Origin: Streptosporangium minutum
GTDB taxonomy: Bacteria > Actinomycetota > Actinomycetes > Streptosporangiales > Streptosporangiaceae
Reading direction: 5' to 3'
NCBI RefSeq assembly: GCF_002149035.1
Contig: NZ_NGFP01000010.1
Coordinates: 1-64,000, forward strand
DNA: 64,000 nt
Position 1 is the first letter of the stretch. Each line of letters opens with the position of its first letter. A model generated the notes under the pieces. The model saw only the letters and a list, made by a program, of their open reading frames with translations. It was not told the origin of the DNA and did no database searches. Positions 19,701-37,771 of this stretch are shown piece after piece. Both the position numbers and the translations under genes were made by a program.

Positions 19701-20259
19701 GGCCGAGGGAGTGGACATCGCCAAGGAGGCGGTCCAGTCGTTCCGCCAGTTCGTGAAGGAGCACCAGGACGAGGTGATCGTCCAGCAGCTCCGCCACGGC
19801 AGCGGACCGCGGCTGACGTACGCGCAGCTCCAGGATCTCGCCGACCGGGTGAAGCGGCTGCCGAACGTCTACAACGTCGACTTCCTCTGGAGGTCGTACG
19901 AGGAGCTGGGCGAGGCTCCGTCGCTGGGGGAGGGCGAGGCCGCCGTCACGGACCTGGTCTCCCTGCTCCGCCGCGAGCTCGGCGTGGACCGGGAGGTCCG
20001 GCCCTTCCGGTCGATCATCGAGGAGCGCTACGCCACCTGGCGCGCGAGCCAGGAACGTTCCGGGGTGACCTTCACCCCCGAGCAGCGCTGGTATCTCGAC
20101 CGGATCGTGGGCGTGATCGCCACGAGCGTCGAGGTCACCGTCGAAGACCTGCACGGCATGCCGTTCGACCAGCGCGGCGGCGCGTACGGCTTCGCCGACG
20201 CCTTCGGCGACCGCGCCGAATCCATTCTCGAAGAACTCAACAAGGAGCTAACCGCGTGA
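16771..20259 (+). CDS. hsdR: Type I restriction endonuclease subunit R (HsdR), DUF4145-containing
   Basis: A 1162-residue ATP-dependent DNA translocase and nuclease. In order: a DUF4145-like N-terminal domain (about 30-125); a coiled coil (about 148-215); the HSDR_N nuclease with D292 in RSDYALYVDG and the E-A-K motif at about 306-309; an SF2 helicase with Walker A ATGAGKT (about 437), DECHR (about 565), LTATPT (about 590) and motif VI MKGRGAR (about 803); and an EcoEI-type C-terminal domain that contacts the methylase. All catalytic motifs are intact. The stop overlaps the HsdS start by 4 bases. The long antisense frame across it is a GC artefact. Confidence 0.93.
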   Translation: MVNGVGGLAGGSPNFGFLLAHEPLLVVYGAGAETSVFTDPNGALVKCRQFIEVLTTVMVRRTGIAVAVDNRLGTRIHALSDNGVILRSGADAFHEIRRIGNRAVHEHYADTRAALDSVNKCFQLGLLLHRAITGDRQVITFVPPQPPVDVTGQLREDLERYKRELTEARLILDGKRSRAEAVSEARAKAEAELSRALRERDRLAAQLETLQGTAQQLRSEFDERTPDKVPISRRRLFIEQARAPEPLTEAQARREIDRMLREAGWVVQDLAQLNPLAGTGVAVREFAFARGRSDYALYVDGMLVGVIEAKREGTSLTGVEWQSAGYAAALPKAYAMATWRRDIPLPFRYESTGVETRFTNGLDPDPRSRGVFSFHRPETVAAWMAEADDRPDAPTLRARVRQMPALVETGLRPAQIDAVKGVESSLCRDLPRALVQMATGAGKTFAAVTQTYRLIKHAGAKRVLFLVDRNNLGDQAAAEFRNYTTPDDGRKLSELYNIQRLAGGTVLESTNVVITTIQRLSLALRGEQLPPDDDDQGIDDYVPDRPVDAQYNRQLPPETFDLIVVDECHRSIYGKWRAVLDYFDAPILGLTATPTAQTLGFFDQNIASEYTYEQAVADGVNVDYDVYRIRTKISESGSRIPALDEEGTRTVVPFRDRRTRMQRYEELQEDFTYSGEQIGRSVLAKDQIRLVLKTFRDKVLPEQYGKRTVVPKTLIFAKSDEHADDIVQIVREVFGKGNDFAAKITYKSKDVGDDPKKLLQLFRTSAALRIAVTVDMIATGTDVRPLEIVFFMRGVQSAVYFEQMKGRGARTVDETEFRQVNPDRSARRKDRFLLVDAVGVTDSPLCDARPLERTPSLSLKQLLAKAANLSIDEHEIASLASRLARLDLDMTDADRDEIARVAEGTTLRDIVRRLVDAVDTDELIAVQDTGGDRAVQRRLREAVAPLTANPDLRRRILDIRHDRDTAIDDLSTDELISAEGVDIAKEAVQSFRQFVKEHQDEVIVQQLRHGSGPRLTYAQLQDLADRVKRLPNVYNVDFLWRSYEELGEAPSLGEGEAAVTDLVSLLRRELGVDREVRPFRSIIEERYATWRASQERSGVTFTPEQRWYLDRIVGVIATSVEVTVEDLHGMPFDQRGGAYGFADAFGDRAESILEELNKELTA

Positions 20260-21659
20260 CGTTGTTCTCGATCCCTGATTCTTGGGCTTGGGCCTCATTC
20301 GGAGATGTTGCACGGATCGCAAGCAACTTAGTTGATCCCAAAGATTATCAGAATAAGCCGCATATAGCGCCTAATCACATCGAACCATGGACTGGTCGAA
20401 TTCTTGATTACGCGACCATCCAAAATGATGGAGTGACAAGCCCAAAACACTATTTTCACTCCGGCCAGATCCTCTATTCAAAGATTCGTCCATACTTAGC
20501 CAAGATTTCCTTGGTAGACTTTGAAGGCCTCTGTAGTGCGGATATGTACCCTATTGATACGAACCTCAATGCTAGATATTTAAAATGGTGGATGCTAACA
20601 CCTATGTTTGTCGAAGAATCTACGAAGCATCAAGGGCGAGTGGTGCTGCCGAAGATTAATGCAGAGGCGCTACGAAAGCTCTGCGTTCCAGTGCCTCCAC
20701 TGGAAGAGCAGTGCAGGATTGTCGCTGCTCTCGAAAGTCATCTCTCGCGACTTGATAAAATATCTCATGCGGTAGAAAGGGCCAGGATTCGCGCCTCGGC
20801 GCTGCGTCGTAAGGTTCTTGATGATGAAGATTCTCGACTTTCTGATGTTCCGTGGAAGCAGCTCGGGGAACTTCTTCGAGAGCCTTTGCGGAATGGTCAC
20901 TCAGCAAGAGCCACTCAAGACGCTACAGGGATCCGCACGCTGACGCTTACCGCTGTCACAAATAACCAGTTCATCGAAAAAAACACCAAACTTGCGGCGG
21001 CGGACCCTGACCGTGTCCGACATCTTTGGCTCCGCTCTGGGGATATCTTCATTCAACGCTCGAACACTCCAGAGTTGGTGGGGTCGTCAGCTCTTTATCG
21101 CGGTCCGGAAGATTGGGCGATATTTCCCGATCTCTTGATTCGGATCAGAGTCGCCCCTTCGTTGTTGCCAGAATTTGTTCATTTGATGCTATCTACTACT
21201 CGGACGAAAAGATATTTACGCTCATCCGCCAAGGGTCTTGCAGGTTCAATGCCGAAAATTGATCAAGGAACTATCGAACGGATAGAGCTGCCAACGCCCC
21301 CACTGGATGTTCAGCGTGAATTCGTCGAGTTTGTAAAAGCGCAGCAAGAGGGGGTTTCTCGCCTGATCGGAGGGCTGGAAGGCGCACGGAGCCGTTCAAG
21401 CCAGTTGCGCCGGTCGCTTTTGAGAGAGGCGTTTGCGGGCCGGCTGCTTCCACAGGACCCGACCGATGAGCCCGCCTTGGCATTGCTGGCGCGCATCAGA
21501 GCTGAACGAGCCAACCAGCTCAAGCCTCAGCGTGCCCGCCGTACCAAGCCAAAGGAATCACCCTCCGTGAGCCTCGCCGAGCCATCGGCCGCCAGCCGTA
21601 CTGAGTGGCCCGACTCGACCCGTACCCCCACCACCTACGAGCAGGGAGAACTGCTGTGA
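20256..21659 (+). CDS. hsdS: Type I restriction-modification specificity subunit (HsdS)
   Basis: 467 residues. Two target recognition domains (about 1-140 and 200-340) are separated by conserved helices, PVPPLEEQCRIVAALESHL (about 145-165) and PTPPLDVQREFVEFVKAQQ (about 345-365), the usual HsdS half-repeat design. The Ala/Arg/Pro-rich tail (about 420-467) is a likely extension. The first 1 kb is much richer in A and T than the flanking hsdR and hsdM, with codons such as aat, ata and tta. This marks the recognition module as imported. It is coupled to hsdR by ATGA-type overlap (GTGA) and to hsdM likewise. Confidence 0.93.
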   Translation: MTLFSIPDSWAWASFGDVARIASNLVDPKDYQNKPHIAPNHIEPWTGRILDYATIQNDGVTSPKHYFHSGQILYSKIRPYLAKISLVDFEGLCSADMYPIDTNLNARYLKWWMLTPMFVEESTKHQGRVVLPKINAEALRKLCVPVPPLEEQCRIVAALESHLSRLDKISHAVERARIRASALRRKVLDDEDSRLSDVPWKQLGELLREPLRNGHSARATQDATGIRTLTLTAVTNNQFIEKNTKLAAADPDRVRHLWLRSGDIFIQRSNTPELVGSSALYRGPEDWAIFPDLLIRIRVAPSLLPEFVHLMLSTTRTKRYLRSSAKGLAGSMPKIDQGTIERIELPTPPLDVQREFVEFVKAQQEGVSRLIGGLEGARSRSSQLRRSLLREAFAGRLLPQDPTDEPALALLARIRAERANQLKPQRARRTKPKESPSVSLAEPSAASRTEWPDSTRTPTTYEQGELL

Positions 21660-23233
21660 CGACGACCGTGTCCGACAGCGAGCAGGCCGAGCGGTCGGCC
21701 GAGGCGGCGCGGCTCGCGGAGGCGCGGCGGCTCGCGGACAAGATGTGGAGCTACTGCGACGTGCTCCGCGACGCAGGGGTGTCGGCGATCGACTACGTCG
21801 AGCAGCTGACTTACCTGCTCTTCCTCAAGATGGCCGACGAGCGGGCCAAGCTCCCGGAGAGCCTCGGCGGCGGGCGGATCCTGCCTGAGGGGATCAGCTG
21901 GGAGACGCTGAAGAAGCTGACCGGCGCGGCGCTGGAGGAGGCGTACCGGGAGACGCTGGCCGAGCTGGGCAAGGAGAAGGGCATCCTTGGGACGGTCTTC
22001 CGCAAGGCACAGAACAGGGTGCAGGAGCCCGCGCTGCTCAGGAAGCTAATCGTTGACCTCATGGACAACGAGACCTGGGGACGGCGCGGCACCGACGTCA
22101 AGGGCGACGCCTACGAGCAGCTCCTCGCCCGCAGCGCCACCGACGTCAAGTCCGGTGCCGGGCAGTACTTCACCCCGCGCCCGCTCATCAACGCGATCGT
22201 CGACTGCGCGCAGCCCACCCCCGGGGACACGATCATCGACCCGGCCTGCGGCACCGGCGGCTTCCTGCTGGCCGCCAACGACTACATCCGCAGGCACCAC
22301 ACAGACCTGACCCCGGGCCAGCGGCACCGCCTGACGCACGGGGAGGCGTTCCTGGGGACCGAGCTGGTGGACGGCACGGCCCGGCTCGCCGCGATGAACA
22401 TGCTGCTGCACGGCATGTGCCAGGCGGACGGTGAATCGCCCATCCAGACCGAGGACGCGCTCGCCACCTCCCCCTCCGTCCGCGCCTCCCTGGTGCTGGC
22501 CAACCCGCCGTTCGGAAAGAAGTCCGCGATCACGGTGATCGGCCTCGACGGCAAGGCGACCCGGGACGACGTCGCCTACGACCGGCAGGACTTCTGGCAG
22601 ACCACCACCAACAAGCAGCTCAACTTCGTCCAGCACATCGCCCGGTTGATGGCGATCCCCGGCCGCGCGGCGGTGGTCCTCCCCGACAACGTGCTCTTCG
22701 AGGGCGGCGCGGGGGAGGGGATCCGCCGTGCGCTCCTCAAGGAGTACGACGTCCACACCCTGCTCCGGCTCCCCACCGGGATCTTCTACGCGGGCGGGGT
22801 CAAGGCGAACGTGCTCTTCTTCGACCGGAAACCGGCCAGTGAGGAGCCCTGGACCAGGAACCTCTGGGTGTACGACTTCCGTACCGGCCAGCACTTCACG
22901 CTCAAGCAGAACCCGCTCCGCCGCGAGGACCTGCAGGAGTTCGTCGACTCCTACCTTCCGGGCAGGTCACCCGACGAGCGGGTGGAGACCGAACGGTTCC
23001 GGAAGTTCACCTATGACGAGCTGGTCGCCCGCGACAAGTGCAACCTGGACATCTTCTGGCTCAAGGACCCGAGCCTGGAGGACGCCGACGCGCTCCAGCC
23101 GCCCGAGATCATCGCGCAGGAGATCGTCGACGACCTGGAGGCCGCGCTGAGCGAGTTCGCCGCCATCGCCGAAGCCCTCCAGAACCGCGCCGTCGCTCAG
23201 GACCCCGGAAGCACACCGGCCGAAGACCTCTGA
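21656..23233 (+). CDS. hsdM: Type I restriction-modification N6-adenine methyltransferase (HsdM)
   Basis: 525 residues. An N-terminal helical HsdM_N domain (about 20-150) is followed by the N6-adenine methylase fold, with SAM-binding motif IIDPACGTGGFLLAA (about 192-206) and catalytic NPPFGKKS (about 283-290). It methylates the site set by HsdS to protect host DNA. GTG at 21656 overlaps the hsdS stop (GTGA); a longer reading from inside hsdS has no ribosome binding site. The order R-S-M is unusual, since M-S-R and R-M-S are more common. A hairpin terminator follows. Confidence 0.93.
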   Translation: MTTTVSDSEQAERSAEAARLAEARRLADKMWSYCDVLRDAGVSAIDYVEQLTYLLFLKMADERAKLPESLGGGRILPEGISWETLKKLTGAALEEAYRETLAELGKEKGILGTVFRKAQNRVQEPALLRKLIVDLMDNETWGRRGTDVKGDAYEQLLARSATDVKSGAGQYFTPRPLINAIVDCAQPTPGDTIIDPACGTGGFLLAANDYIRRHHTDLTPGQRHRLTHGEAFLGTELVDGTARLAAMNMLLHGMCQADGESPIQTEDALATSPSVRASLVLANPPFGKKSAITVIGLDGKATRDDVAYDRQDFWQTTTNKQLNFVQHIARLMAIPGRAAVVLPDNVLFEGGAGEGIRRALLKEYDVHTLLRLPTGIFYAGGVKANVLFFDRKPASEEPWTRNLWVYDFRTGQHFTLKQNPLRREDLQEFVDSYLPGRSPDERVETERFRKFTYDELVARDKCNLDIFWLKDPSLEDADALQPPEIIAQEIVDDLEAALSEFAAIAEALQNRAVAQDPGSTPAEDL

Positions 23234-27435: not shown

Positions 27436-28806
27436 TCAGGCCAACTCCTCGATGAAGGCCGCGAGCTGGACGACGTTGCGGCACTCGTGCATCGGGACGA
27501 TCTGCCCGTACGCCGTGGCCACCGAGTCACCGGTGTCCCACTGGCTCACCGGCTCCGGGTTGAGCCAGTAGGCGTGCCGGGCCTCCCGGCTCAGGCGTCT
27601 CAGCGTCTCCAGCGCGGGCGGCTGGTAGTTGGAGCGCGCGTCGCCCAGGATCAGCAGGGACGTCTTCGGCCCGATGGCGTCGCCGTACCGCTCGGCGAAC
27701 CGCTCGAAGGCGTTGCCGTAATTGGTCCGGCCGAACCGCACCATGTCGGCCTCCTTGGCCAGCCGGGTCATCGCCTCCACCACGTCGGCGCCGGGGACGA
27801 AGAACCGGGTGATCTCGTCCACGGTGTCCACGAAGCCGAACGCGCGGACCTTGGTGAACTGCTCGCGCAGCGCGTAGGTGAGCAGCAGCGTGAAGTGGGC
27901 GAAGGAGGCGACCGAGTCGCTGGTGTCGCAGAGGATGACCAGCTCGGGCTTGTGCGGGCGGCGCGGCTTGTTGAAGGTGGTCAGTGGCACCCCGCCGCTG
28001 GACAGCGAGGCCCGCACGGTCCGGCGGAAGTCCAGGCGCCCCCGGTGGCCGAGCCGGTGCTTGACGGTCAGCCGGGCGGCCAGGCGGCGGGCGAGAGGCT
28101 GGACCTCGCGGCGCAGCCTGGACAGGTCGGCCTTCGTCACCCTGAGGAAGTCGAGCTGCTCCAGCGGCGGCCGTACGGCGGAGCGCGCGATCCGCTCGAT
28201 CCCGGAGTCCTCGGCGATCCGGCGGCGCACGTCGGTGGAGACGGCGTCCTCGAAGCGCCTGGTGTTCTCCCCGATCCGCTGCCGGGCCACCTTCTCCGCC
28301 AGGCCGCCGCGCTCCTGGCCGGCCAGCACCTCGGCGAGCAGCCGGGCCATGAGCGTCTCGGGGGACAGCGCCCGCAGCACCGAGTAGGAGAACCAGTTCT
28401 GCCGGCCGGGGCCCGCTGTCTGGCGGCCGAAGCGCTCCACCATCGCCCGGGCGAACTCGTTCATCCCGTCGGCGCCCAGCAGCAGCTCGGCCAGCCGGTC
28501 CCGCAGCTCGGGGACCGCCGCGGTCTCCAGATCCGGCCCGGCGGCGTCCGGGCCGTCCTCGGGGCGCGGGCCGTACAGGCCGGTGGTCGACGCGGGGAAC
28601 CACAGGTCGAAGAGCGTGTCGAAACCCGGCCGGTGCGAGGGCCGCTTGACCAGGGTCGCGGCGTAGGCGGCGCGCAGCGACTCCCGCTCGGCCAGGTCGA
28701 TCACCTGAAGCGCCCGTGCCGCGTCCAGCCCCTCGGCCAGCGAGACCGGCAGCCCGGCCTCACGCAGCGCGTGTACGAAGCCGACATGCCGGTCGAGCAG
28801 GCTCAC
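27436..28806 (-). CDS. VWA domain protein, CoxE-like
   Basis: 456 residues. The C-terminal half is a von Willebrand A domain with the metal-binding DTSDS (about 295-299, DxSxS), then RFGRTNYGNAFERFAERYG and LLILGDARSNYQ. CoxE-like proteins work with MoxR AAA+ ATPases as chaperone-like machines for cofactor insertion or protein assembly. The MoxR gene is directly upstream (64-base gap), so they form one unit. No metalloenzyme target gene is adjacent. A fragment of a related gene tail is at 23277. Confidence 0.88.
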   Translation of the reverse strand: MSLLDRHVGFVHALREAGLPVSLAEGLDAARALQVIDLAERESLRAAYAATLVKRPSHRPGFDTLFDLWFPASTTGLYGPRPEDGPDAAGPDLETAAVPELRDRLAELLLGADGMNEFARAMVERFGRQTAGPGRQNWFSYSVLRALSPETLMARLLAEVLAGQERGGLAEKVARQRIGENTRRFEDAVSTDVRRRIAEDSGIERIARSAVRPPLEQLDFLRVTKADLSRLRREVQPLARRLAARLTVKHRLGHRGRLDFRRTVRASLSSGGVPLTTFNKPRRPHKPELVILCDTSDSVASFAHFTLLLTYALREQFTKVRAFGFVDTVDEITRFFVPGADVVEAMTRLAKEADMVRFGRTNYGNAFERFAERYGDAIGPKTSLLILGDARSNYQPPALETLRRLSREARHAYWLNPEPVSQWDTGDSVATAYGQIVPMHECRNVVQLAAFIEELA

Positions 28807-28870
28807 CTCCCGCCCCCCTGCTTCCCGGTCTGTCCGTTCACAGGGCCTCCCGCCCCTCGGCTCCGGCCGC

Positions 28871-29722
28871 TCACAGCGCCAGTTCCTTGCGTGCCCGGGT
28901 CTGGTCGGAGGCGTGCTTGAGCACGACCCCGAGGGTGGCGCCGACCGTCGCCTCGTCCAGCTCGGTACGGCCCAGCGCGAGCAGCGTGTTGGCCCAGTCG
29001 ACGGTCTCGGCGATGGAGGGCGCCTTCTTCAGCTCAAGGGTGCGCATCGTGGCGACCGTACGGGCGAGCTGCTCGGCCAGGCCCGCCTCGATCGCGGGCA
29101 CCTGCGCCAGCACGATGTCGCGCTCGCGCTCCGGCGACGGATACTCCAGGTGCAGGTAGAGGCAGCGCCGCTTGAGCGCCTCGGACAGCTCGCGGGTCGC
29201 GTTGGAGGTCAGCACCACGTACGGCCTGCGCACGGCCGTGATCGTGCCGAGCTCGGGGATCGTGACCTGGTAGTCGGAGAGGATCTCCAGCAGCAGCCCC
29301 TCCACCTCGACGTCGGCCTTGTCGGTCTCGTCGATCAGCAGGACCGTCGGGGTCTCGGACCTGATCGCCCGCAGCAGGGGCCTTTCGAGCAGGAACTCCT
29401 CGGTGAAGATGTCGTCGTGGGTGGCGTCCCAGCCCTCGCCGTTTCCGGCCTGGATGCGCAGGAGCTGCTTCTTGTAGTTCCACTCGTACAGCGCCCTGGC
29501 CTCGTCGAGCCCCTCGTAGCACTGCAGCCGGATGAGCGAGGCCCCGGTCGCGGCCGCCACGGCCTTGGCGAGCTGGGTCTTGCCCACCCCCGCCGGGCCC
29601 TCGGCGAGCAGCGGCTTGCCCAGCGCGCCGGCCAGGAAGACCGAGGTCGCGATGGAGTCGTCGGCGAGGTAGTCCACGGCGCTGAGCCGCTCCCGGACGT
29701 CGGCGGGCGAGGCGAACCACAT
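28871..29722 (-). CDS. MoxR family AAA+ ATPase
   Basis: About 283 residues. Walker A is GPAGVGKTQLAKAVA (about 41-55), Walker B VLLIDETDKAD (about 127-137), sensor 1 in VVLTSNATREL, and the C-terminal helical lid is present. It acts with the CoxE-like VWA protein downstream. I start at ATG 29722, with GGGAG five bases upstream; GTG 29728 abuts the ribosome binding site and is less likely. Confidence 0.9.
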   Translation of the reverse strand: MWFASPADVRERLSAVDYLADDSIATSVFLAGALGKPLLAEGPAGVGKTQLAKAVAAATGASLIRLQCYEGLDEARALYEWNYKKQLLRIQAGNGEGWDATHDDIFTEEFLLERPLLRAIRSETPTVLLIDETDKADVEVEGLLLEILSDYQVTIPELGTITAVRRPYVVLTSNATRELSEALKRRCLYLHLEYPSPERERDIVLAQVPAIEAGLAEQLARTVATMRTLELKKAPSIAETVDWANTLLALGRTELDEATVGATLGVVLKHASDQTRARKELAL

Positions 29723-29823
29723 GTGCACTCCCAGTACAGGACCGAATGTTGTTCTACCCTAGCGGCTCAAGGTTCTCCGTTTCGAAGCCCTCTGGAAAGT
29801 GCGCTATCCTTCAAGAGCTTCAC

Positions 29824-29959: not shown

Positions 29960-32257
29960 TCAGGAGTCGGGCGAGGCCGGCGCGGACGGCGGGCGCGACT
30001 GGTGCCGGTGCGGCTCGATCCTGGTCGGCAGCCGTATCCCCAGCAGGAGGGCCAGGAATCCGGCGGCGCTCCCGGCGGCGACCAGGGAGAGGGCGGGCCA
30101 GAAGGGGTCCTCCCTCCAGTCGCTCTCCCGGTCCCCGGCATGGGGGACGGCGCCGGACGGTGATGGCAGGGCCGACTCGACCAGCCGGGCGGCCGCCGTC
30201 ACCGGGGAGTCGAAGTCCTCCGATGCCAGCCTGCCGGGGTCGATGGACCGGGCGACCGTGTCCAGCGCGTCGCGCAGCGCGCGGCCACCGGCCTGGTTGC
30301 ACAGAATGAGCAGCGAGCGGCTCGGCATCCCGGCGAGCGCTTCCGATCGGGGATAACCGCTGTCGCGGGCGGCCTCGCGGGGCACGATGGCGGCTTGCAC
30401 CGCCTTGTCCCGGAGAGCGCGCAGTGGGTCGGTCCCCGGGACGGTCTCCAGATGCAGCCAGGGATGGCGCTGCCGCAGGATCTGCTCAGGCCGCTCCCGG
30501 GAGGGCCCCTCCTGGGAGGTGTCCGGCACAGAGATCCGGACCTCCTTGTCCGGGCGTGCGAAGGCCGCCGTCAACTTCTCCGGCTTGATCAGACCGGCGT
30601 CGTAGACCAGGACGTCTCGGTTCGGGACCGGGATGGCGGCGACCGCGGAGAACCCCTGCGCCGCCGGCGGATCCACCGGCCACGTCGGCAGGGCACCCGA
30701 GAGGGCGGGATCCGCCGGAGGGATCTCCACGAGGACCACGGCCGGCTCCGCGACGGGTGCGGTCTCGGCGGGGGCGTCACTCAGCCGGATCTCGGACCGA
30801 TAGCCCGTCCGCTGGACGGCCTTGGCCACGAGGTTCCTGGCGAACGCGTCCTCCTGCCCGGGCGGAGCCTGGACGACGACCGTGCCCGGTTCCGTCCCTG
30901 CCGAGTCCCCCGCGGCGGGGGGATCGCCGCCGGGGGCGAGCAGCATCGCGACGACACCGGTGCCGATCAAGGTGATGGCCAGCGTCGCGAAGGCCACGAC
31001 CATGGTGACCTTGCCGTGCAGGCCCCAGCCGGGCCGGAGCCGCCTTTCGCGGTCGGCCTGTTCCAGCTCGCCGAGCGCGGCCCGCATCGAGGGCGGCACG
31101 GTGTTCGGAGCCGGGCCCGCGGCGGCCGTCGGCCGGTGGGGCACGGTGCCCGGGGCCGGGCCTACGGCGGCCGTCGGCCGGTAGGGCACGGTCACCGCGG
31201 CGGGCGGGACCGCCCCGGCCTCCGGGACACCGCCCCCTCCTCCCGGAACCGGATCACGATCCTCGGAACCGGGCGCGCTGGGGCCGGGCAAGGCCTTTCG
31301 ATGCCCCGCCGCGACGACCGTGTCCGCACCGGGGCCCCCTGCCCGGGGATCCTCCGAGCCCGGCTTCGCCTTCCGCCACACGCCGGTGGCGTCGGGGGAC
31401 AGCAGCCCGGAGCCGGCGTATTCAAGCAGCCGTGCGGCGTTCGGTAGGTCCTCGGGGCCGAACGACAGCGGATCGGTCAGCCCGGCGAGCCCCCGCAGCA
31501 TGTCCTCGAGCTGGACATCGTGCCGGGCCAGCAGGCCCAGGCACACGTTCGCCCGGCCGTCCCGCCAGGTGATCTCCGCTCCGTGGCCCCACCGCACCTC
31601 GTAGGCGTTCTCCGGCGCGTGCCGCGCGAAGGACAGCCTGAGCTTGTGCCGGGCCGTGCTGCTGGTCCAGGTCGCCGCGGTCAACCTCGTCCGCATGCCG
31701 TACGGCAGGAGCGCGGCGACGGTGTCCAGAAAGCGCAACCGTTCGATCATGGGAACCCTGTCCGCGCCCACCACGCAGACGGGCCGCCCGGTCAGCAGCA
31801 GCGCGGCGGCGTACCGCGCGTCCGACCCGGGGACGAGGGCCGTGGGGTCGAACTCCGGCACGCGTACGACCAGGGGAGGGGACGGGGTCGCCGGCAGGCC
31901 CGCGAGGGCGTGGTAGAGGGCCTCATAGGACACCTGATGGACGGCCAGATCCTGGTACGGGACGTAGAACCAGCGGGTGTAGGCGATCTTACGGTTGGTG
32001 GCGTCCCGGTGCCCGGACCACTCCTGGGCCGCGAGCACGATGTGGTGCGACACCTGCTCGCGCTCCCTGGTCGCCGCGACCGCGATCGTCACCTGGGGCA
32101 GATCCGCCGAGAGACCCGTGGCGTACCTGCTCCTGATCTTCTCGAAGACCTCGGGCCCGAGGCGGTCGTCGCTCCAGTCGAGCAGCTCGTAGTCGTCGTG
32201 GGCGCCGGGCCGCTTCCCCTCCAGCGCCCACTCGAATCCGATCTCGTGGTCGGTCAC
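29960..32257 (-). CDS. Membrane-anchored GTPase-associated (GAP1-like) protein with an extracellular solute-binding-like domain
   Basis: 765 residues. The N-terminal cytoplasmic part (about 1-330) contains LLPYGMRTRLTAATWTSS and resembles the GAP1-type partners of bacterial TRAFAC GTPases. A Pro/Ala-rich linker follows. TM1 is at about 415-438. An extracytoplasmic domain (about 440-715) has the layout of periplasmic binding proteins (LLILCNQAGGRALRDALDTV near its end). TM2 is at about 716-741, with a short basic tail. GTG 32257 overlaps the GTPase stop (GTGA). The architecture suggests that the outer domain senses a ligand and the inner domain talks to the GTPase. The GAP assignment is by resemblance, not proof. 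Confidence 0.6.
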   Translation of the reverse strand: MTDHEIGFEWALEGKRPGAHDDYELLDWSDDRLGPEVFEKIRSRYATGLSADLPQVTIAVAATREREQVSHHIVLAAQEWSGHRDATNRKIAYTRWFYVPYQDLAVHQVSYEALYHALAGLPATPSPPLVVRVPEFDPTALVPGSDARYAAALLLTGRPVCVVGADRVPMIERLRFLDTVAALLPYGMRTRLTAATWTSSTARHKLRLSFARHAPENAYEVRWGHGAEITWRDGRANVCLGLLARHDVQLEDMLRGLAGLTDPLSFGPEDLPNAARLLEYAGSGLLSPDATGVWRKAKPGSEDPRAGGPGADTVVAAGHRKALPGPSAPGSEDRDPVPGGGGGVPEAGAVPPAAVTVPYRPTAAVGPAPGTVPHRPTAAAGPAPNTVPPSMRAALGELEQADRERRLRPGWGLHGKVTMVVAFATLAITLIGTGVVAMLLAPGGDPPAAGDSAGTEPGTVVVQAPPGQEDAFARNLVAKAVQRTGYRSEIRLSDAPAETAPVAEPAVVLVEIPPADPALSGALPTWPVDPPAAQGFSAVAAIPVPNRDVLVYDAGLIKPEKLTAAFARPDKEVRISVPDTSQEGPSRERPEQILRQRHPWLHLETVPGTDPLRALRDKAVQAAIVPREAARDSGYPRSEALAGMPSRSLLILCNQAGGRALRDALDTVARSIDPGRLASEDFDSPVTAAARLVESALPSPSGAVPHAGDRESDWREDPFWPALSLVAAGSAAGFLALLLGIRLPTRIEPHRHQSRPPSAPASPDS

Positions 32258-33261
32258 GAGACCACCGTCGGCCGGATCGCGGCGAGCCGCTGCCCCAGCC
32301 AGAGCATGGGCTCCACCACGTTGATCGGATGCAACTGCCCCCGGATGCGTGAATCCTCGTCCGCCTCTCCGGGGACCATGTTCTGGAAGTCGTCCCAGTC
32401 GAAACGCTTCGTGCGCCGGTCCACATAGAAGCCGATCGAGGACGTGGCGAAGAAGCGGATCCGATCCGGGTGGAAGAACTGGTCGAGCGCCTTGAGCACC
32501 ATGTCGGCGGTGCCACTGGCCGACACCTGGCACAGCTCGTGGAACAGCTCCCGCGCGTCCTCGCTGGTCACCCGGGGCAGCCGGTACGGATCGTCGATGT
32601 CCACGGTGAGCAGCCGTCGCTTCTCCGCCGTCTCAAGCACCCGGGGGTCGTCGAACTTGGTGACGCACACGGCGATGTGGTGCGGCAACTTCCCGTCGGT
32701 GAACTCGCCGGCGGCGAGCATCCGCTCGGCGAGCCGGGTGAGCGGGGCGTGCATGTGGTCGAAGGCGTCCCCGAGGGTGAACTCCCTGATCGGGTCGTAG
32801 AGGAAGACGATGCCCCGGCTCCGCTCAAGGTTGTCCAGCAGCTTTTGCAGACGGGGGTCTCCCGAGCCGTCCAGAGCGCTCGGGCCGCCCGCCGGGCCGT
32901 ACCACCCCCCGGGAGCGTCGGTCATGCCGATGCCTATCCGGGCCGGCGGCCCCGGCTTGGCCTTCCTGCTCCAGAAGCCGGGCTTGCGGAGAGCGGGGCC
33001 GAGCAGCGTCCAGTGATAGCGCTCCATGGTCATGTTCGCCTCGGGGAACAGCTTGCCCCGCAACAGGGCGTTGGTCTTCTCGATCAGGTAGTCCGACGAC
33101 GCGGGGTCGGATCCGATGATCTTCCAGTCATCGTCGCTCTTGGTCAGGGCGATGAACAACGCCGCCAGCAGAGTGGTTTTGCCACTGCCGGGAGCGCCCC
33201 ACATGGCGATGTTGTGATCGGGACGTTCCCGGCTCGGATCGGGCTGCATGCGCGTCGTCAC
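32254..33261 (-). CDS. TRAFAC-clade GTPase
   Basis: 335 residues. G1 P-loop AMWGAPGSGKTTLLAALF (about 19-36), G3-like DAPGGW (about 113), G4 TKFD in VCVTKFDDPRVL (about 198). The G4 motif gives guanine specificity. A partner-binding C-terminal part ends with INVVEPMLWLGQRLAAIRP. GTG 33261 overlaps the stop of the preceding gene (GTGA) and is preferred for coupling; ATG 33249 is possible. It is the middle gene of a three-gene minus-strand operon. Confidence 0.75.
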   Translation of the reverse strand: MTTRMQPDPSRERPDHNIAMWGAPGSGKTTLLAALFIALTKSDDDWKIIGSDPASSDYLIEKTNALLRGKLFPEANMTMERYHWTLLGPALRKPGFWSRKAKPGPPARIGIGMTDAPGGWYGPAGGPSALDGSGDPRLQKLLDNLERSRGIVFLYDPIREFTLGDAFDHMHAPLTRLAERMLAAGEFTDGKLPHHIAVCVTKFDDPRVLETAEKRRLLTVDIDDPYRLPRVTSEDARELFHELCQVSASGTADMVLKALDQFFHPDRIRFFATSSIGFYVDRRTKRFDWDDFQNMVPGEADEDSRIRGQLHPINVVEPMLWLGQRLAAIRPTVVS

Positions 33262-34691
33262 TCCGTCTCGTCGAGCAGGGGGAACGGGAGATGGACCGGG
33301 GAGGAGGCGACCAGGCCGAGATCGGCGGCCAGGCCGCGCACGTCCACCGCCTCCAGATGGGCCAGGGCCGCCGCGCCGATCCGGTGCCACACCTGGTGCG
33401 CCTGGTCGGCGGGCTGGTCGCAGATCGCGCCCAGCACCGTGCCCTGCCGCTGCCGCAGGGCGGCGAGCAGCTTCCGCCAGTCGTGCCGGTGGGGGCAGGG
33501 CAGGATCCTGGACTGGTCGGTGCGAGCCGGGTGCGGTGGGAGGCCTCCGACGGTGAGGATGACGGCGGGCGCCGGATCCGCCCGGCCGAGCCGTTCGACC
33601 ACCACGGCGAGCATGTCCTCAAGCTGCGCCGCGTGGGGATGGTACGGATATCCCCTGGCCACCGCTCCCCGTTCCTCCAGCGCGCCGAGTGCGTTCAGAG
33701 CCTCTCCCGCGCCGGCCTCCCAGGCCGCGATCCGCACCGGGAACTCCGGCGCCGACGGGTCGTACGAGTGCGCCGCGTAGGCGAGGAGGGAGACCCGGAG
33801 CAGGCCACCGAGCTCGCCGGAGGCAGAGCTGATCATCTGGCGTGCCCGGCTCAGCCGTTCCGCGACCTGGTCGTCCGCTCCGCAGACCTCCACCGCGCAG
33901 ACGAGGTGCGCCGGGCCGCTGCCCCCCGCCAGCCGATCCGGGAGCGCGGCGACGAGCTGATCCCAGCCCCGAGGGTCGGGCGAGAGCGCGGGCAGGCCGG
34001 TGAACCGTACGCGGCCGGGCCGTACCAGCTCGGCGGTCACCTCATACCGGCCGGGCGCGACCGGGGCGGACTGCACGGACAGCAGCCGCGGCTTCGGACC
34101 CTGCCAGGTGACCACGGCGAACGCGGTGCCGTGCGCGCCCGCGGCTTCGCAGCGGAGGGCGACCCGGGTCCGGGCCCCCGGACGGGAGCCGAGGGGGAAG
34201 AGCTGCCTGCTGGTCAGCCGAGGTCGGCTGGTATCCGAGTCGACGAGGACGACGATCAGCTCGTACGACCTGGTCAGCGGGTCGTCGGCGATGACCTCCC
34301 GGATCAGTGCGGCGATCGGGGCTTCGGCTCGCAGCACCTGCGCGGCGGGATGTGCCGCGCGCAGCCAGGCGAGGGCCTGCTCGACCTGCGGATCAGCGGA
34401 GGACGCGGCTACGAGCATCACGTCGGCGGTGGACGAGGCGGCGCGGGCCATGCGTAGCACGGCCTCCCGGGTCTCGGCCGGATGGGTGCCCCACCCGCGT
34501 TCGCCCGCGAGGCCCGGCCAGGTCGCCGACCAGCTCCGGCCGCGGGGGCGGCCGTTGTCGTCCCGGTGGAGCAGGAACGTGGTGACGCCGTCGGCGGCGA
34601 TCTCCACCAGGGTGAGGCGATCGGTGTCGGCGAGGTCGGCCAGGGCCTGGGCGATCGCCTTCCTGCTCAGATCCCTGTCGGGCTCCGGCAC
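33258..34691 (-). CDS. Uncharacterised partner protein of the GTPase operon
   Basis: 477 residues, soluble, no signal or membrane segment. Alpha/beta patterns recur: LIVVLVDSDTSRPRLTSRQL near residue 155 (a DxDxS that weakly recalls a VWA metal site), AHLVCAVEVCGADDQVAERL, and AVILTVGGLPPHPARTDQSR. The last part (HRHDWRKLLAALRQRQGTV..ICDQPAD) again looks Rossmann-like. It could be a VWA-type adaptor. GGAGG is 7 bases before GTG 34691. First gene of the operon, divergent from the DUF4407/kinase genes. Confidence 0.6.
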   Translation of the reverse strand: MPEPDRDLSRKAIAQALADLADTDRLTLVEIAADGVTTFLLHRDDNGRPRGRSWSATWPGLAGERGWGTHPAETREAVLRMARAASSTADVMLVAASSADPQVEQALAWLRAAHPAAQVLRAEAPIAALIREVIADDPLTRSYELIVVLVDSDTSRPRLTSRQLFPLGSRPGARTRVALRCEAAGAHGTAFAVVTWQGPKPRLLSVQSAPVAPGRYEVTAELVRPGRVRFTGLPALSPDPRGWDQLVAALPDRLAGGSGPAHLVCAVEVCGADDQVAERLSRARQMISSASGELGGLLRVSLLAYAAHSYDPSAPEFPVRIAAWEAGAGEALNALGALEERGAVARGYPYHPHAAQLEDMLAVVVERLGRADPAPAVILTVGGLPPHPARTDQSRILPCPHRHDWRKLLAALRQRQGTVLGAICDQPADQAHQVWHRIGAAALAHLEAVDVRGLAADLGLVASSPVHLPFPLLDETE

Positions 34692-34927
34692 GAGGAGTCC
34701 TCCATAGATATGTCGTATTAGCTGCGCTGCGTCCCTGGTGTCCCGATTGGTCGGCGTATATAACGTTAGGAGGTGCCGCTGGGGCGAGGTGCTGTATCGG
34801 GATTCCTCGATGAAATTCTATCGGGTATCTGTAAATACGATATTGGGCGCCTATGATATCCCCTCCGGGGAGCCGACGCCGTTCCAATCGGTGCCGACGC
34901 GATGAGACTCCCTTTGCGAGGAGGAGT

Positions 34928-36328
34928 ATGAGACGTTTCCTGAGCGCGCTGTCCGGGGTTTTGGTCGCGCTGTCAGGAGCGCGACCCGAGGTTCTCCGGA
35001 CGTGCCCGACCGAACGCGGCAAATTCGAGGGCATCGGGGGCGCCGTTCTCACCACGAGCGTGCTCGCCTTCGTCTCCATGACGTTCGCCCTCAACAGCAC
35101 GCTCAGCGTCAACATCGTCCTCGCCGTCGCCGCCGCTCTGCTGTGGGGCCTGGCGATCCTCAGCCTTGACCGGTGGCTCGTCTCCACGATCAGGGCTGAC
35201 GCGCCGAACCGCTGGGCGCTGGCCGCGCCGCGCGTCCTCGTCGCCGTCGTGCTCGGCCTGGTGATCTCCACTCCTCTGGTGCTGCAGGTTTTCAAGGCCG
35301 AGATCGACACCCAGATCACCGAGATGAAACAGCGGCGCGGTGACGCCTTCGCCGTACAGCAGGAGCAGGGCGCGGTGGGAAAGAGCGTCAGCCAGCTCCG
35401 CAAGGAGGTGGCCGATCTGCGGCAGGTGATTTCCTCCGGCGGCGACGTTCCCCTTGACATAGAACAGGACTCGAAGATAAAGGCGCTGTCCGCCCAGCGC
35501 GCCGATGAGCAGAAGCGAGCGGACAAACACTACAAAGAGTGGCAGTGCCAGCTCTATGGTGGTCCAAACTGCATCAAAAAGGGCAATGGTCCACTCGCTC
35601 AGGAGAGCCGGCGTGCGTACGAAAAAGACAAGGGGCGCATCGAGCTGCTCACCCGGCAGATAGAGGACCGAAAGCGGGAGTTGAACGCGACCGGGGAACA
35701 GGCCAAGGGGACACGGCTCGCCGCCGCGGAGGAGGCCCTGCCCAAGGCCCAGCGCCAGCTCGACGCCGCGGTCGAGCAGCAGGCCCGGATCCAGCGGTCC
35801 TTCGACGAGGACAACCTGGCCACCGACGGGCTGCTCATCCGGCTCCGGGCGCTCAACGAGCTGACCGGCAAGGACATCACCCTCAGCATGGCCCGGCTGC
35901 TGCTGTTCGCGTTGTTCCTGCTCATCGAATGTCTGCCGGTCGCGGTGAAGCTCATGCAGCGGCCCGGCATCTATGAGAAGGCGCTCGCGCTCGCCGAGCG
36001 CCAGGAGCTGGACGGCATGCGCGATGAGTTCGGTGTTCGCGCCGGGTCCCGGTCCCGGCCGGCGGAGCCCGGCGGGTCGGACAGCGTCTGGAGCATCTGG
36101 TCGCCCCGGGAGGACACCTCGCGACGGCCCGGCGCCGCCTTCGGGGAGGAGACGCGGCCACCCCGAGGACCGAACGGCACCCAGGCCGAGTCGGCTGACC
36201 CCGGCTACGAGTACGGGCCCATGGAAGACCAGGCCCTGCGTGGCATGACGGACACCCGCATCATGCGGAGACCGGGACCGGGTGCGGAGCGCTCGGGCGG
36301 GATCGAACTGCTCCCCGACGAGGACTGA
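34928..36328 (+). CDS. DUF4407 coiled-coil membrane protein
   Basis: 466 residues. Three membrane segments near the start (about 35-57, 60-80, 97-118), a long coiled coil (about 120-310, rich in Glu, Lys and Gln), and a fourth membrane segment (about 321-341, LLLFALFLLIECLPVAVKLM). After these comes a Pro/Arg-rich cytoplasmic tail (about 370-466). The coil would project outward between TM3 and TM4. ATG 34928 has GAGGAGGAG right before it. Ten bases separate it from the kinase gene, so its tail, which is rich in Ser and Thr, is a plausible kinase substrate. Confidence 0.8.
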   Translation: MRRFLSALSGVLVALSGARPEVLRTCPTERGKFEGIGGAVLTTSVLAFVSMTFALNSTLSVNIVLAVAAALLWGLAILSLDRWLVSTIRADAPNRWALAAPRVLVAVVLGLVISTPLVLQVFKAEIDTQITEMKQRRGDAFAVQQEQGAVGKSVSQLRKEVADLRQVISSGGDVPLDIEQDSKIKALSAQRADEQKRADKHYKEWQCQLYGGPNCIKKGNGPLAQESRRAYEKDKGRIELLTRQIEDRKRELNATGEQAKGTRLAAAEEALPKAQRQLDAAVEQQARIQRSFDEDNLATDGLLIRLRALNELTGKDITLSMARLLLFALFLLIECLPVAVKLMQRPGIYEKALALAERQELDGMRDEFGVRAGSRSRPAEPGGSDSVWSIWSPREDTSRRPGAAFGEETRPPRGPNGTQAESADPGYEYGPMEDQALRGMTDTRIMRRPGPGAERSGGIELLPDED

Positions 36329-36337
36329 GGCCACCGG

Positions 36338-37771
36338 ATGACGGCACGAATCGTCCAAGGCCGGTACGAGCTGAGGTCCCGGCTCGGCAGGGGCGGCATG
36401 GGCACGGTGTGGCTCGCCTGGGACCGGACGCTGCGGCGATCCGTCGCGCTCAAAGAGGTCGTGCTGGCGCCGTACGGCGAGGACATGGCCGTACGGCGGA
36501 AGAGGGCGCTGAGCGAAGCGCGTGCCGCCGCGCGGATCCGGCATCCGGCGGTCGTCGACATCTACGACGCCTTCATGGACGACGGATCGCCGTGGATCGT
36601 CATGGAGTACATCGAGGGCACGTCGCTGGACCGCCGGATCGAGCGGCAGACCCTCTCCCGGCGGCAGGTCCTCTCCGAGCGGGAGATCACCCGGGTGGGA
36701 CGTGAGGTGCTGGACGGACTGGCCGCCGTGCACGACGCGCAGGTGCTGCACCGGGACGTCAAACCGGCCAACATCATCGTTGATCCCGACGACCGGGTCT
36801 TCCTGGTCGACTTCGGTATCGCGCGGATCTCCGGGGAGAGCGGCCTCACGTCGGCCAACATGCTGCTCGGAACCATCGAGTTCATGGCGCCGGAACGGAT
36901 CGACGGGCACGTGGTGGGGCCGGCGTCGGACTTGTGGTCGCTGGGAGTGACGCTGTTCTGCGCGCTGGAGGGCTACTCGCCGTTCCTCCGTGACAGCCCG
37001 CTCGAAACGGTGCGGGCGGTCACCGCCGGCCGGCCTCCGCGCTTCCGGCGACCGGGTCCGCTCGCCGACGCGATCGCCGGCCTGCTCGTCACCGCCCCCG
37101 CTCGGCGGATGGGGGCGGCCGAGCTGGGGCGGCGGCTGGACACGATCCTCGCGGGCCCGGCGCCGCGGCCCCATGAACGGCAGGAGCCGGAGCGGCGCAC
37201 CGGCCCGGGAACGGGCCAGGAGGCACGGCGCGGACACGGTGCGCACGGCTCGGGGCCGGTCCGGGATCCGGCCCGGGCGGGGGAAGGCCGCGACGGCGGA
37301 AGCCCGCTGCTCGATCGGCCCCGCCAGGAGGCCGCCACCCTGCTCGGCTCGATGGAGCCGAAGGCCGCCGGGCGGCTCCTGGGCGGCGCGGCGGAAGCGT
37401 CGGGCACGGCAGCCGAGGTGCTGGCGCTGCTGCCGCCGCCGCGAGCCGCGCGGGTGATCGACCACATGCCCCCGCATCGGGCGGCCAGGCTGGTGGGCGC
37501 GATGCCCCCCAGCCGGAGCGCGAGCATCCTGGCGCACACGGATGACCGTGTCACGGCCGCTGTCCTCGGCGCGCTCGGCATCGTCCCCGCCGCGGTCCGC
37601 CTGGTGGAGGCGATGACGGTGCGGCGCGCCTGCCGGGTGCTCGGATACGTGCCGCCCGCCGTCGTCGCGGAACTGCTGTCCGCGACCTCGGACGGCCGTG
37701 CCGATCGGCTCCTCGACGGGCTCAGCCGCGCCGTACGCGACGAGATCGCCCGCCTGACCGGCGGAGCGTGA
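36338..37771 (+). CDS. Serine/threonine protein kinase with MgtE-N-like C-terminal repeats
   Basis: 477 residues. A Hanks-type kinase (about 7-260): glycine loop LGRGGMGTVW, VALKE lysine, VLHRDVKPANIIV (catalytic loop, about 137-149), DFGIAR, and a GTIEFMAPE activation end. The linker is disordered and rich in Gly, Arg and Glu (about 265-325). The C-terminus (about 330-475) is built of repeated short helices, with LGSMEPKAAGRLLGG, IDHMPPHRAARLVGAMPPSR and LGYVPPAVVAELLSA, like the superhelical N-domain of MgtE. No membrane segment or PASTA repeat is present. It probably reports to, or acts on, the DUF4407 membrane protein just upstream. Confidence 0.88.
   Translation: MTARIVQGRYELRSRLGRGGMGTVWLAWDRTLRRSVALKEVVLAPYGEDMAVRRKRALSEARAAARIRHPAVVDIYDAFMDDGSPWIVMEYIEGTSLDRRIERQTLSRRQVLSEREITRVGREVLDGLAAVHDAQVLHRDVKPANIIVDPDDRVFLVDFGIARISGESGLTSANMLLGTIEFMAPERIDGHVVGPASDLWSLGVTLFCALEGYSPFLRDSPLETVRAVTAGRPPRFRRPGPLADAIAGLLVTAPARRMGAAELGRRLDTILAGPAPRPHERQEPERRTGPGTGQEARRGHGAHGSGPVRDPARAGEGRDGGSPLLDRPRQEAATLLGSMEPKAAGRLLGGAAEASGTAAEVLALLPPPRAARVIDHMPPHRAARLVGAMPPSRSASILAHTDDRVTAAVLGALGIVPAAVRLVEAMTVRRACRVLGYVPPAVVAELLSATSDGRADRLLDGLSRAVRDEIARLTGGA

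Follow-up and report, generated by a model that had tools for sequence, protein, structure and literature searches.

Can a signal from outside a bacterial cell reach a GTPase through a regulator that carries its own binding domain across the membrane? The question is raised by one gene in the window, a stretch of 64,000 nucleotides from Streptosporangium minutum (contig NZ_NGFP01000010.1, positions 1 to 64,000), which a preliminary description had read as a cytoplasmic GAP1-like part joined to an extracellular binding-protein-like domain. The open reading frame is real. It is the third gene of a minus-strand operon (P0003, then P0002, then P0001), and the genes of the cluster are as follows:

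29960..32257, minus strand: P0001, a GAP1-like/binding-protein fusion (765 aa, GTG start)
32254..33261, minus strand: P0002, a GTPase gene (G1 GAPGSGKTT, G3 DAPG, G4 TKFD), DO-GTPase2-related by sequence
33258..34691, minus strand: P0003, conserved gene 1 of the operon (477 aa), with no credible Pfam match
34853..36328, plus strand: P0004, a divergent gene for a DUF4407 membrane protein (Pfam, 6.6e-81), its position conserved in relatives
36338..37771, plus strand: P0005, a Ser/Thr protein kinase with an MgtE_N-like C-terminal part (Pfam, 1.5e-48), conserved in relatives

The GTG start of P0001 (position 32257) overlaps the stop codon of P0002 by 4 bases. The same 4-base overlap occurs in 25 of the 32 loci of relatives, with a spacing of +1 to +61 bases in six and no value for one. 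Downstream of P0001 lie a tRNA-Lys gene, a AAA gene that we take to be of the MoxR type (its Pfam label is AAA_5), and a CoxE-type vWA gene. The N-domain profile has one match in the window's own genome. A first scan of the genome contigs with P0001 found no relative, and plasmids held no match to it. Among the neighbors, the true start of P0004 may be internal to the annotated start at 34853. By eye, P0003 may combine a beta domain with a degenerate vWA domain; 26 members produced no credible Pfam match.

The topology of P0001 was examined by hydropathy and charge in 27 proteins, namely the window protein and those from 26 loci of relatives with the same C-terminal half (L081, a phosphatase fusion described below, and the fragment L085 were left out). 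Its parts are listed here from the N terminus:

31388..32257, minus strand: cytoplasmic N-domain (predicted), residues 1–290, with a longin-like part at ~3–120, an alpha/beta lobe at 130–222, and three helices at 234–283
31991..32005, minus strand: D85-x3-R89, in the loop between strands 4 and 5, a candidate arginine finger
31643..31741, minus strand: the most conserved stretch, residues 173–205 (R-L-x-F-x-D...LLPYG-x-R...TW), in the putatively GAP1-M-related part
31004..31387, minus strand: low-complexity linker, residues ~291–418, Pro/Ala/Gly-rich
30947..31003, minus strand: TM1, residues 419–437, in to out (mean hydropathy 2.23)
30104..30931, minus strand: extracytoplasmic domain (predicted), residues 443–718 (folded core ~458–700), modeled with a type 2 periplasmic-binding-protein fold
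30035..30091, minus strand: TM2, residues 723–741, out to in, then a short basic tail (mean hydropathy 2.13)

The helices proposed in the preliminary description, at about residues 415–438 and 716–741, were found at 419–437 and 723–741, where they bracket ~280 residues. Both are present in 26 of the 27 proteins; in L086, the one exception, TM1 is followed by the outside domain and the protein then ends without a TM2. This two-helix pattern is not due to chance. Positive charge flanking a membrane helix marks its inner side (the positive-inside rule). Counted over 20 residues on each side, TM1 has a net positive charge ahead of it and a zero or negative charge behind it in every one of the 27 proteins; for TM2, the charge ahead is zero or negative in 24 of 26 proteins, and the charge behind is positive in 26 of 26. 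From this charge bias, which around TM1 is shared by all 27 proteins, the middle domain is predicted to lie outside, as had been suggested, and the N-domain and the tail would face the cytoplasm. In L081, a relative of the middle domain starts with a lipoprotein-like signal (by eye), which agrees with the outside position.

Across the 27 proteins, the linker between the N-domain and TM1 spans 88–210 residues. It is 136 aa long in the window protein when counted from residue 283 (49% Pro/Ala/Gly), and in seven Streptosporangium proteins 136–210 Pro/Ala/Gly-rich residues separate the two domains. The Pro/Ala/Gly content is 41%–56% in Streptosporangium and Microtetraspora and 22%–34% in Microbispora and Herbidospora, in which the linker contains a stretch that looks helical by eye. 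The idea that the linker retains the helical domain of relatives without the outside domain was not borne out (best E value of 0.02, under inclusion).

An AlphaFold2 model of residues 443–718, built from a 24-row alignment, has a mean pLDDT of 80.3 and a pTM of 0.76. It bears out the proposal of a mixed alpha/beta domain of ~275 residues and, together with the charge bias, predicts the domain to be neither unstructured nor cytoplasmic. Foldseek returned 301 PDB matches to this model at E ≤ 0.001, the first being AfProX (3mam, 8.2e-8); AfProX, EgtU, and TRAP-type binding proteins are at the top of the list, and OpuAC and OpuBC are lower. VIA-align gave similar neighbors, with EgtU (8dp6_B) at a Z of 12.4 (232 aligned, rmsd 4.6) and AfProX (3mam) at 12.3 (236 aligned, rmsd 4.4). 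Because of the Foldseek and VIA-align matches of the model, we assign the outside domain to the type 2 periplasmic-binding-protein fold as a predicted structure, in line with the substrate-binding layout noted earlier. Comparison with solute-binding families, a check that had been set beforehand, came out negative: none of the 24 outside-domain members matched a Pfam binding-protein family above the cut-off. Below the cut-off, one member matched SBP_bac_11 (0.041) and one matched Phosphonate-bd (0.076), neither of which is credible alone. The 14 matches of the outside-domain profile to PDB sequences up to an E value of 5 (best, 0.067), among them dehydrogenase, YrbA, and glycogenin fragments, were dismissed as chance, as were the Metal_resist and alpha-lytic prodomain Pfam matches of P0001 (E values of 0.0075 and 0.31, far under the cut-offs).

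By sequence comparison, the outside domain evolves faster than the N-domain, with identities to the window protein of 24%–29% for the former versus 51%–57% for the latter in ten Microbispora rows. Tyr635 is invariant in the 24 rows of the outside domain and, by eye, missing in four Herbidospora rows, so a common pocket across outside domains is doubtful. In L081, from the genus Acrocarpospora (sister genome G041, A. corrugata), the outside domain is fused via a transmembrane segment to a PP2C phosphatase (1.6e-23). The fusion sits behind a lipobox, as judged by eye, and its gene is flanked by a vWA gene on one side and an APH/kinase-like gene on the other, with a Ser/Thr kinase gene near. Because it is used on two signaling outputs, GAP1-like and PP2C, the outside domain is most simply read as a portable sensor.

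The N-domain family was found at 77 named loci, which belong to Streptosporangiaceae, Thermomonosporaceae, Frankiaceae, and a few Streptomycetaceae, and the nearest named relative of the window protein is from Streptosporangium canum (90% identity over 285 N-domain columns). The outside domain is present in 20 of the 77 loci. It was found in 28 of 341 genomes of the family in one search and in 30 of 341 in another; 7 of 16 genomes of the genus have this form. A class-wide draw of 394 genomes, in which the six best first-look candidates per genome were scored, produced seven outside-domain matches, all within the window's own family. A quick tree was built from 73 N-domains, five of the 77 rows having been set aside as short or odd. 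In it, 21 outside-domain rows and Sphaerimonospora mesophila fall on one side of a branch with an SH-aLRT value of 100. In the S. mesophila protein, which has no outside domain, the two TM helices are still present and are separated by about a dozen residues. A single TM helix forms the end of 16 of the remaining rows, and 35 have no such end. The tree needs two changes; with a root outside that clade, these are read as a single gain and a single loss of the outside domain.

On the cytoplasmic side, Pfam recognized only GAP1-M (PF20014) in the window protein, at 14.6 bits against a cut-off of 24. GAP1-M was matched at E ≤ 1 in 22 of 33 N-domain members (best E value of 0.0012), and the GAP1-M-like stretch of P0001 covers residues 158–205. 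For comparison by hhalign, eight true GAP1 proteins of other genomes were chosen from 20 matches; matches on the minus strand, short matches, and L095 with its long insert were not used. Residues 138–240 scored 23.0 against these eight rows, a value reached by none of 150 column shuffles, at a probability of 10.9; the whole-length local comparison had a probability of 2.0, and 4 of 150 shuffles reached its score. GAP1-N2 (PF20013) had no match in P0001, in the 33 N-domain members, or in the window's own genome, and homology of residues 1–137 to GAP1-N2 was not supported in global mode (score of 1.24, with 123 of 150 shuffles as high). These comparisons suggest that the N-domain is remotely related to GAP1-M. 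In a conservation alignment of 74 rows, which omits four of the 77 loci, L174, D178, L184–G187, R189, T196, and W197 are invariant (74 of 74). R89 is likewise present in all 74 rows and D85 in 73, and true GAP1-N2 rows have D-x3-R at the corresponding place (8 of 8). According to the available text on the longin-DENN GAP C9orf72-SMCR8, the catalytic arginine finger, Arg147 of SMCR8, comes from the longin domain (PMC8213707). Because a longin domain presents Arg147 in that case, R89 is by analogy a candidate arginine finger.

The AlphaFold2 model of the N-domain has a pLDDT of 89.6 and a pTM of 0.90. The DSSP order of its longin-like part is strand-strand-helix-strand-strand-strand-helix-helix, the order of longin domains, and it is followed by an alpha/beta lobe of about five strands and three helices. 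At E ≤ 0.001, Foldseek matched the model to only two PDB entries, TagF (9t0n, 1.4e-5) and a DENND1B/Rab35 entry (3tw8_C, 5.6e-5), and the TM-scores were 0.30–0.36. With VIA-align, a DENND10 entry (8p0v_M; 241 aligned, rmsd 5.6) and TagF (236 aligned, rmsd 5.0) each had a Z of 8.2, a value that by the program's own note is middling near 8 and can come from a common arrangement. Entries for DENND1A and DENND1B had Z values of 7.5 and 6.8, and the next ten rows are longin, GATOR, FLCN, or SEA entries (Z of 5.1–5.8, residues ~2–138). Besides TagF, the first 14 rows are all DENN, longin, FLCN, GATOR, or SEA entries or complexes, with chain names judged from entry titles and lengths; lower rows are PAS-like and other domains (Z ≤ 4.6). 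A search of PDB sequences with the N-domain profile found no DENN protein, and its single match up to an E value of 10 is a ribosomal protein. The N-domain is longin/DENN-like in its predicted fold. DENN membership is not claimed, because Z values of ~8 are middling, TM-scores are ~0.3, and the sequence profile has no DENN match. The module layout described in the available text on DENN proteins (longin, five-strand lobe, and helical d-DENN; PMC3521125) agrees with the DSSP order. The earlier suggestion that the N-terminal part resembles GTPase-associated proteins stands as far as the GAP1-M-like stretch, gene order, and predicted fold are concerned, and as a Pfam assignment the resemblance is remote.

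The neighboring P0002 has a Pfam score of 25.7 bits for DO-GTPase2, just under the cut-off of 27. A GTPase alignment was made from the loci that hold a match (32 of 35), giving 33 rows with the window. Compared by hhalign with 14 true DO-GTPase2 rows, it produced a probability of 97.6, an E value of 4.3e-12, and a score of 87.6 (100 shuffles scored at most 21.9), and P0002 is thus related to DO-GTPase2 at the sequence level. The G1 motif GAPGSGKTT is present in 31 of 33 rows; the G3 aspartate and glycine and the G4 motif TK[FY]D are kept in all 33. The Walker B glutamate of DO-GTPases, as given in the available text of Kaur et al. 2020 (PMC7159879), is absent from the alignment, in which D-[APV]-[PE]-G-G, found in 32 of 33 rows, is aligned with DP[AS]GE of true members. 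A GTPase gene is directly upstream of the N-domain match in 69 of the 77 named loci when counted by hit end (65 if measured from the stop codon), ~2 kb upstream in four, and not found in four. Three loci (L035–L037) have two GAP1-like genes in tandem behind one GTPase gene, and this arrangement may lie behind three of the four loci with a GTPase gene ~2 kb away. A trypsin-GTPase fusion adjoins the relatives in L035.

The computed results are the outside position, the binding-protein fold, the GTPase motifs, the gene order, and the grouping of the outside-domain proteins in a single clade. The best explanation, to which we give somewhat better than an even chance, is that P0001 is a receptor-like regulator of the neighboring GTPase. 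Gene order, the GAP1-M-like stretch, and the predicted fold support a tie between the N-domain and the GTPase. We infer physical contact between the two, ligand binding, and the mode and direction of control: the cytoplasmic longin/DENN-like (GAP1-like) N-domain would bind the TRAFAC GTPase P0002 and alter its nucleotide state, acting either as a GAP or as a GEF, and the outside domain would report an extracytoplasmic ligand or protein. The signal would most likely pass by clustering, or by recruitment to DUF4407/kinase partners, and not by a rigid push, because a single membrane helix and a long low-complexity linker join the two domains. With the outside domain occupied, the regulator and the GTPase could be held or clustered at the membrane. 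The preliminary description had an outside ligand changing the GTPase state directly. That step is not supported, as the Pro/Ala/Gly-rich linker of 136–210 residues speaks against a direct relay; with more than 100 such residues between outside domain and N-domain, a rigid relay is unlikely in the window's species. The architecture given in the preliminary description is confirmed, and its reading is supported in part. Against the best explanation, the S. mesophila protein exists without an outside domain, and of the 77 loci four have no GTPase match and four have it ~2 kb away. The missing Pfam support for a binding-protein family and for GAP1-N2, the middling structural scores of the N-domain and the lack of DENN matches to its profile, the doubt about a common pocket, and the missing Walker B glutamate of the GTPase also count against it.

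Other readings were weighed against the same evidence. The outside domain could be a degenerate binding-protein fold that binds no small ligand and serves as an envelope anchor or in protein-protein contact (e.g., with DUF4407 or the wall), with the GTPase complex placed at the membrane. The missing Pfam match over the cut-off, the much faster divergence of the domain in Microbispora, the loss of Tyr635 in Herbidospora, and the S. mesophila protein, which dropped the domain and kept both TM helices, all fit this reading. However, no part of the fold is missing and its scores against true solute-binding proteins are good, the domain has been recruited to a second signaling output (PP2C), and fast divergence would fit sensors for different ligands too, and we consider a degenerate fold rather unlikely. 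It is less probable still that the transport link of the fold is what matters. The closest folds are indeed binding proteins of ABC transporters, and one of these might have become joined by accident to a cytoplasmic protein with an unrelated role, but no ABC permease match was found among the six scanned neighbors (P0002–P0005 and the MoxR and vWA genes), and all 20 outside-domain loci also contain the GTPase, P0003, DUF4407, and kinase genes. A chance fusion is already disfavored and, in our view, very improbable.

In another reading, the protein belongs to a biological-conflict (immunity) system of the kind put forward for DO-GTPase/GAP1, and its variable C-terminal part would be an effector or invasion sensor and not a receptor for an environmental ligand. 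GAP1 proteins with variable C-terminal effectors, including SLATT pores, and with TM segments are described in the available text of Kaur et al. 2020 (PMC7159879). The trypsin-GTPase fusion in L035 and the patchy distribution within the genus are also in favor of an immunity role. Yet no effector-like enzyme or pore was recognized in P0001, PADLOC had no match for it, and the outside domain stays with one clade, without swapping between close relatives. Immunity is distinctly unlikely on this balance, and a receptor-like regulator is the reading that we carry forward.

If the N-domain regulates P0002, the protein would be a single-chain link from an extracytoplasmic binding-protein domain to a bacterial GTPase regulator, and the function of DO-GTPase/GAP1 systems would become testable. 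The results suggest that, in this bacterium, a G-protein switch could be open to control by a signal from outside. A further-reaching proposal is a bacterial receptor with a true longin/DENN-type GTPase regulator inside and a Venus-flytrap binding domain outside, passing a ligand signal to a G protein within one polypeptide. Class C GPCRs are a comparable design for a receptor of the Venus-flytrap-to-G-protein kind. We regard this proposal as tentative and somewhat doubtful; if it is correct, longin-DENN modules also exist outside eukaryotes. The presence of a longin/DENN-like fold in bacterial relatives of GAP1 would also be relevant to how the DENN and longin GTPase regulators of eukaryotes arose.

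Several known systems share parts of this design. The outside domain has the predicted fold of ProX, OpuAC, and EgtU (Z of 10 to 12.6 over ~230 residues) and differs from them in its low identity (7%–14%) with no Pfam match over the cut-off, in being held between two TM helices, and in having no recognized transporter gene beside it. Conservons are the known actinobacterial G protein systems (AGPS) and, as is proposed for the P0001 cluster, couple a membrane sensor to a GTPase in an actinobacterial operon. In contrast to P0001, according to the available text, their histidine kinase-like membrane sensor is separate from the GTPase regulator, and they use an MglB-type roadblock and a Ras-like GTPase (PMC13343842). 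Pfam identified no histidine kinase, roadblock protein, or Ras-like GTPase in the five genes of the P0001 cluster. TagF of type VI secretion, also a bacterial regulator, is the best Foldseek match of the N-domain (9t0n). The available text states that it works beside a phosphorylation pathway and is fused to the phosphatase PppA in A. tumefaciens (PMC10482370). It binds Fha or TssM and blocks secretion, whereas the scanned neighbors of P0001 include no secretion gene; no GTPase partner of TagF is described in that text (PMC10482370), whereas P0001 adjoins a GTPase gene.

Longin/DENN regulators (the DENND1 GEFs and the FLCN-FNIP, C9orf72-SMCR8, and NPRL2 GAPs) resemble P0001 in predicted fold, in the strand-helix order of the longin part, in the invariant Arg in a loop of that part, and in the adjoining GTPase gene. 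P0001 differs in having no sequence match to them, in being bacterial, shorter, and fused to TM helices and an outside domain, and in its candidate partner, which is a DO-type and not a Rab, Rag, or Arf GTPase. The available text treats the DENN module as a fusion made in the eukaryotic stem and longin as related to the MglB roadblock GAPs (PMC3521125). No bacterial DENN protein was evident by title among the matches listed for DENN or longin with bacteria, archaea, or TagF.

The DO-GTPase/GAP1 systems were defined by Kaur et al. 2020, and GAP1 with TM and outside domains is already published: in the available text, GAP1 often has C-terminal TM helices and sometimes outside cadherin domains, and extracellular ligands are suggested for the latter (PMC7159879). 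TM and periplasmic-binding-protein domains are mentioned there for the EACC1 system and not for GAP1, and DENN, longin, roadblock, and TagF are absent from what is available of the main text (PMC7159879). In the literature searched, to which most subscription papers and bioRxiv preprints do not belong, no report was found of a binding-protein domain on a GAP1-like protein or of its longin/DENN-like fold. Compared with DO-GTPase/GAP1-N2, P0001 has no GAP1-N2 or GAP1-C match, P0002 has no Walker B glutamate, no FNIII component was recognized at the locus, and the outside domain has, as modeled, a type 2 binding-protein fold. The two arrangements are alike in having a GTPase gene followed by a GAP1 gene with a kinase gene nearby, in the TM helices and outside domain on the GAP1 protein, and in the GAP1-M-like stretch.

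Features in the window that bear on P0003, the first gene of the minus-strand operon that ends in P0001, and on the surroundings of this operon are as follows.

16771-23233, consecutive Type I restriction-modification genes (hsdR, hsdS and hsdM like)
27436-29728, CoxE-type vWA gene and MoxR-type AAA gene, past tRNA-Lys
33258-34691, minus strand, P0003, highly conserved

An alignment of P0003 with 26 rows has 55 invariant columns and a column identity that averages 60%, and despite this high conservation no credible Pfam family match was found for the protein. Judged by eye, one part of it is rich in beta structure and another resembles a degenerate vWA domain. The CoxE-type vWA and MoxR-type AAA pair is also present near the P0001 counterpart in six other Streptosporangium loci (L028-L033).

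Parts of P0001 occur in other arrangements in related genomes.

L035 5790-12268, tandem pair of GAP1-like genes and an opposite-strand gene
L036 1550-8167, tandem pair of GAP1-like genes and an opposite-strand gene
L192 155-3330, Acrocarpospora catenulata, N-domain copy and kinase-like gene
L167 from 2896 on, Sphaerimonospora mesophila, P0001 relative of 468 aa
L081 3216-9175, Acrocarpospora, genes for a Ser/Thr kinase, a vWA protein, a PP2C fusion and an APH/kinase-like protein, in that order

The tandem genes of L035 and L036 are without the outside domain and are followed by the opposite-strand gene. In L035 this gene encodes a trypsin-like peptidase whose C-terminal part resembles a DO-type GTPase, and the L036 counterpart has the same C-terminal part. 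The kinase-like gene of A. catenulata is directly upstream of the N-domain copy, and the 1.6 kb of contig upstream contains no GTPase match.

The S. mesophila relative keeps both transmembrane helices and has no outside domain between them; this domain appears to have been lost naturally. The PP2C phosphatase of L081 bears the same outside domain as P0001. Its order is a lipobox, the binding-protein-like domain, a transmembrane helix and PP2C.
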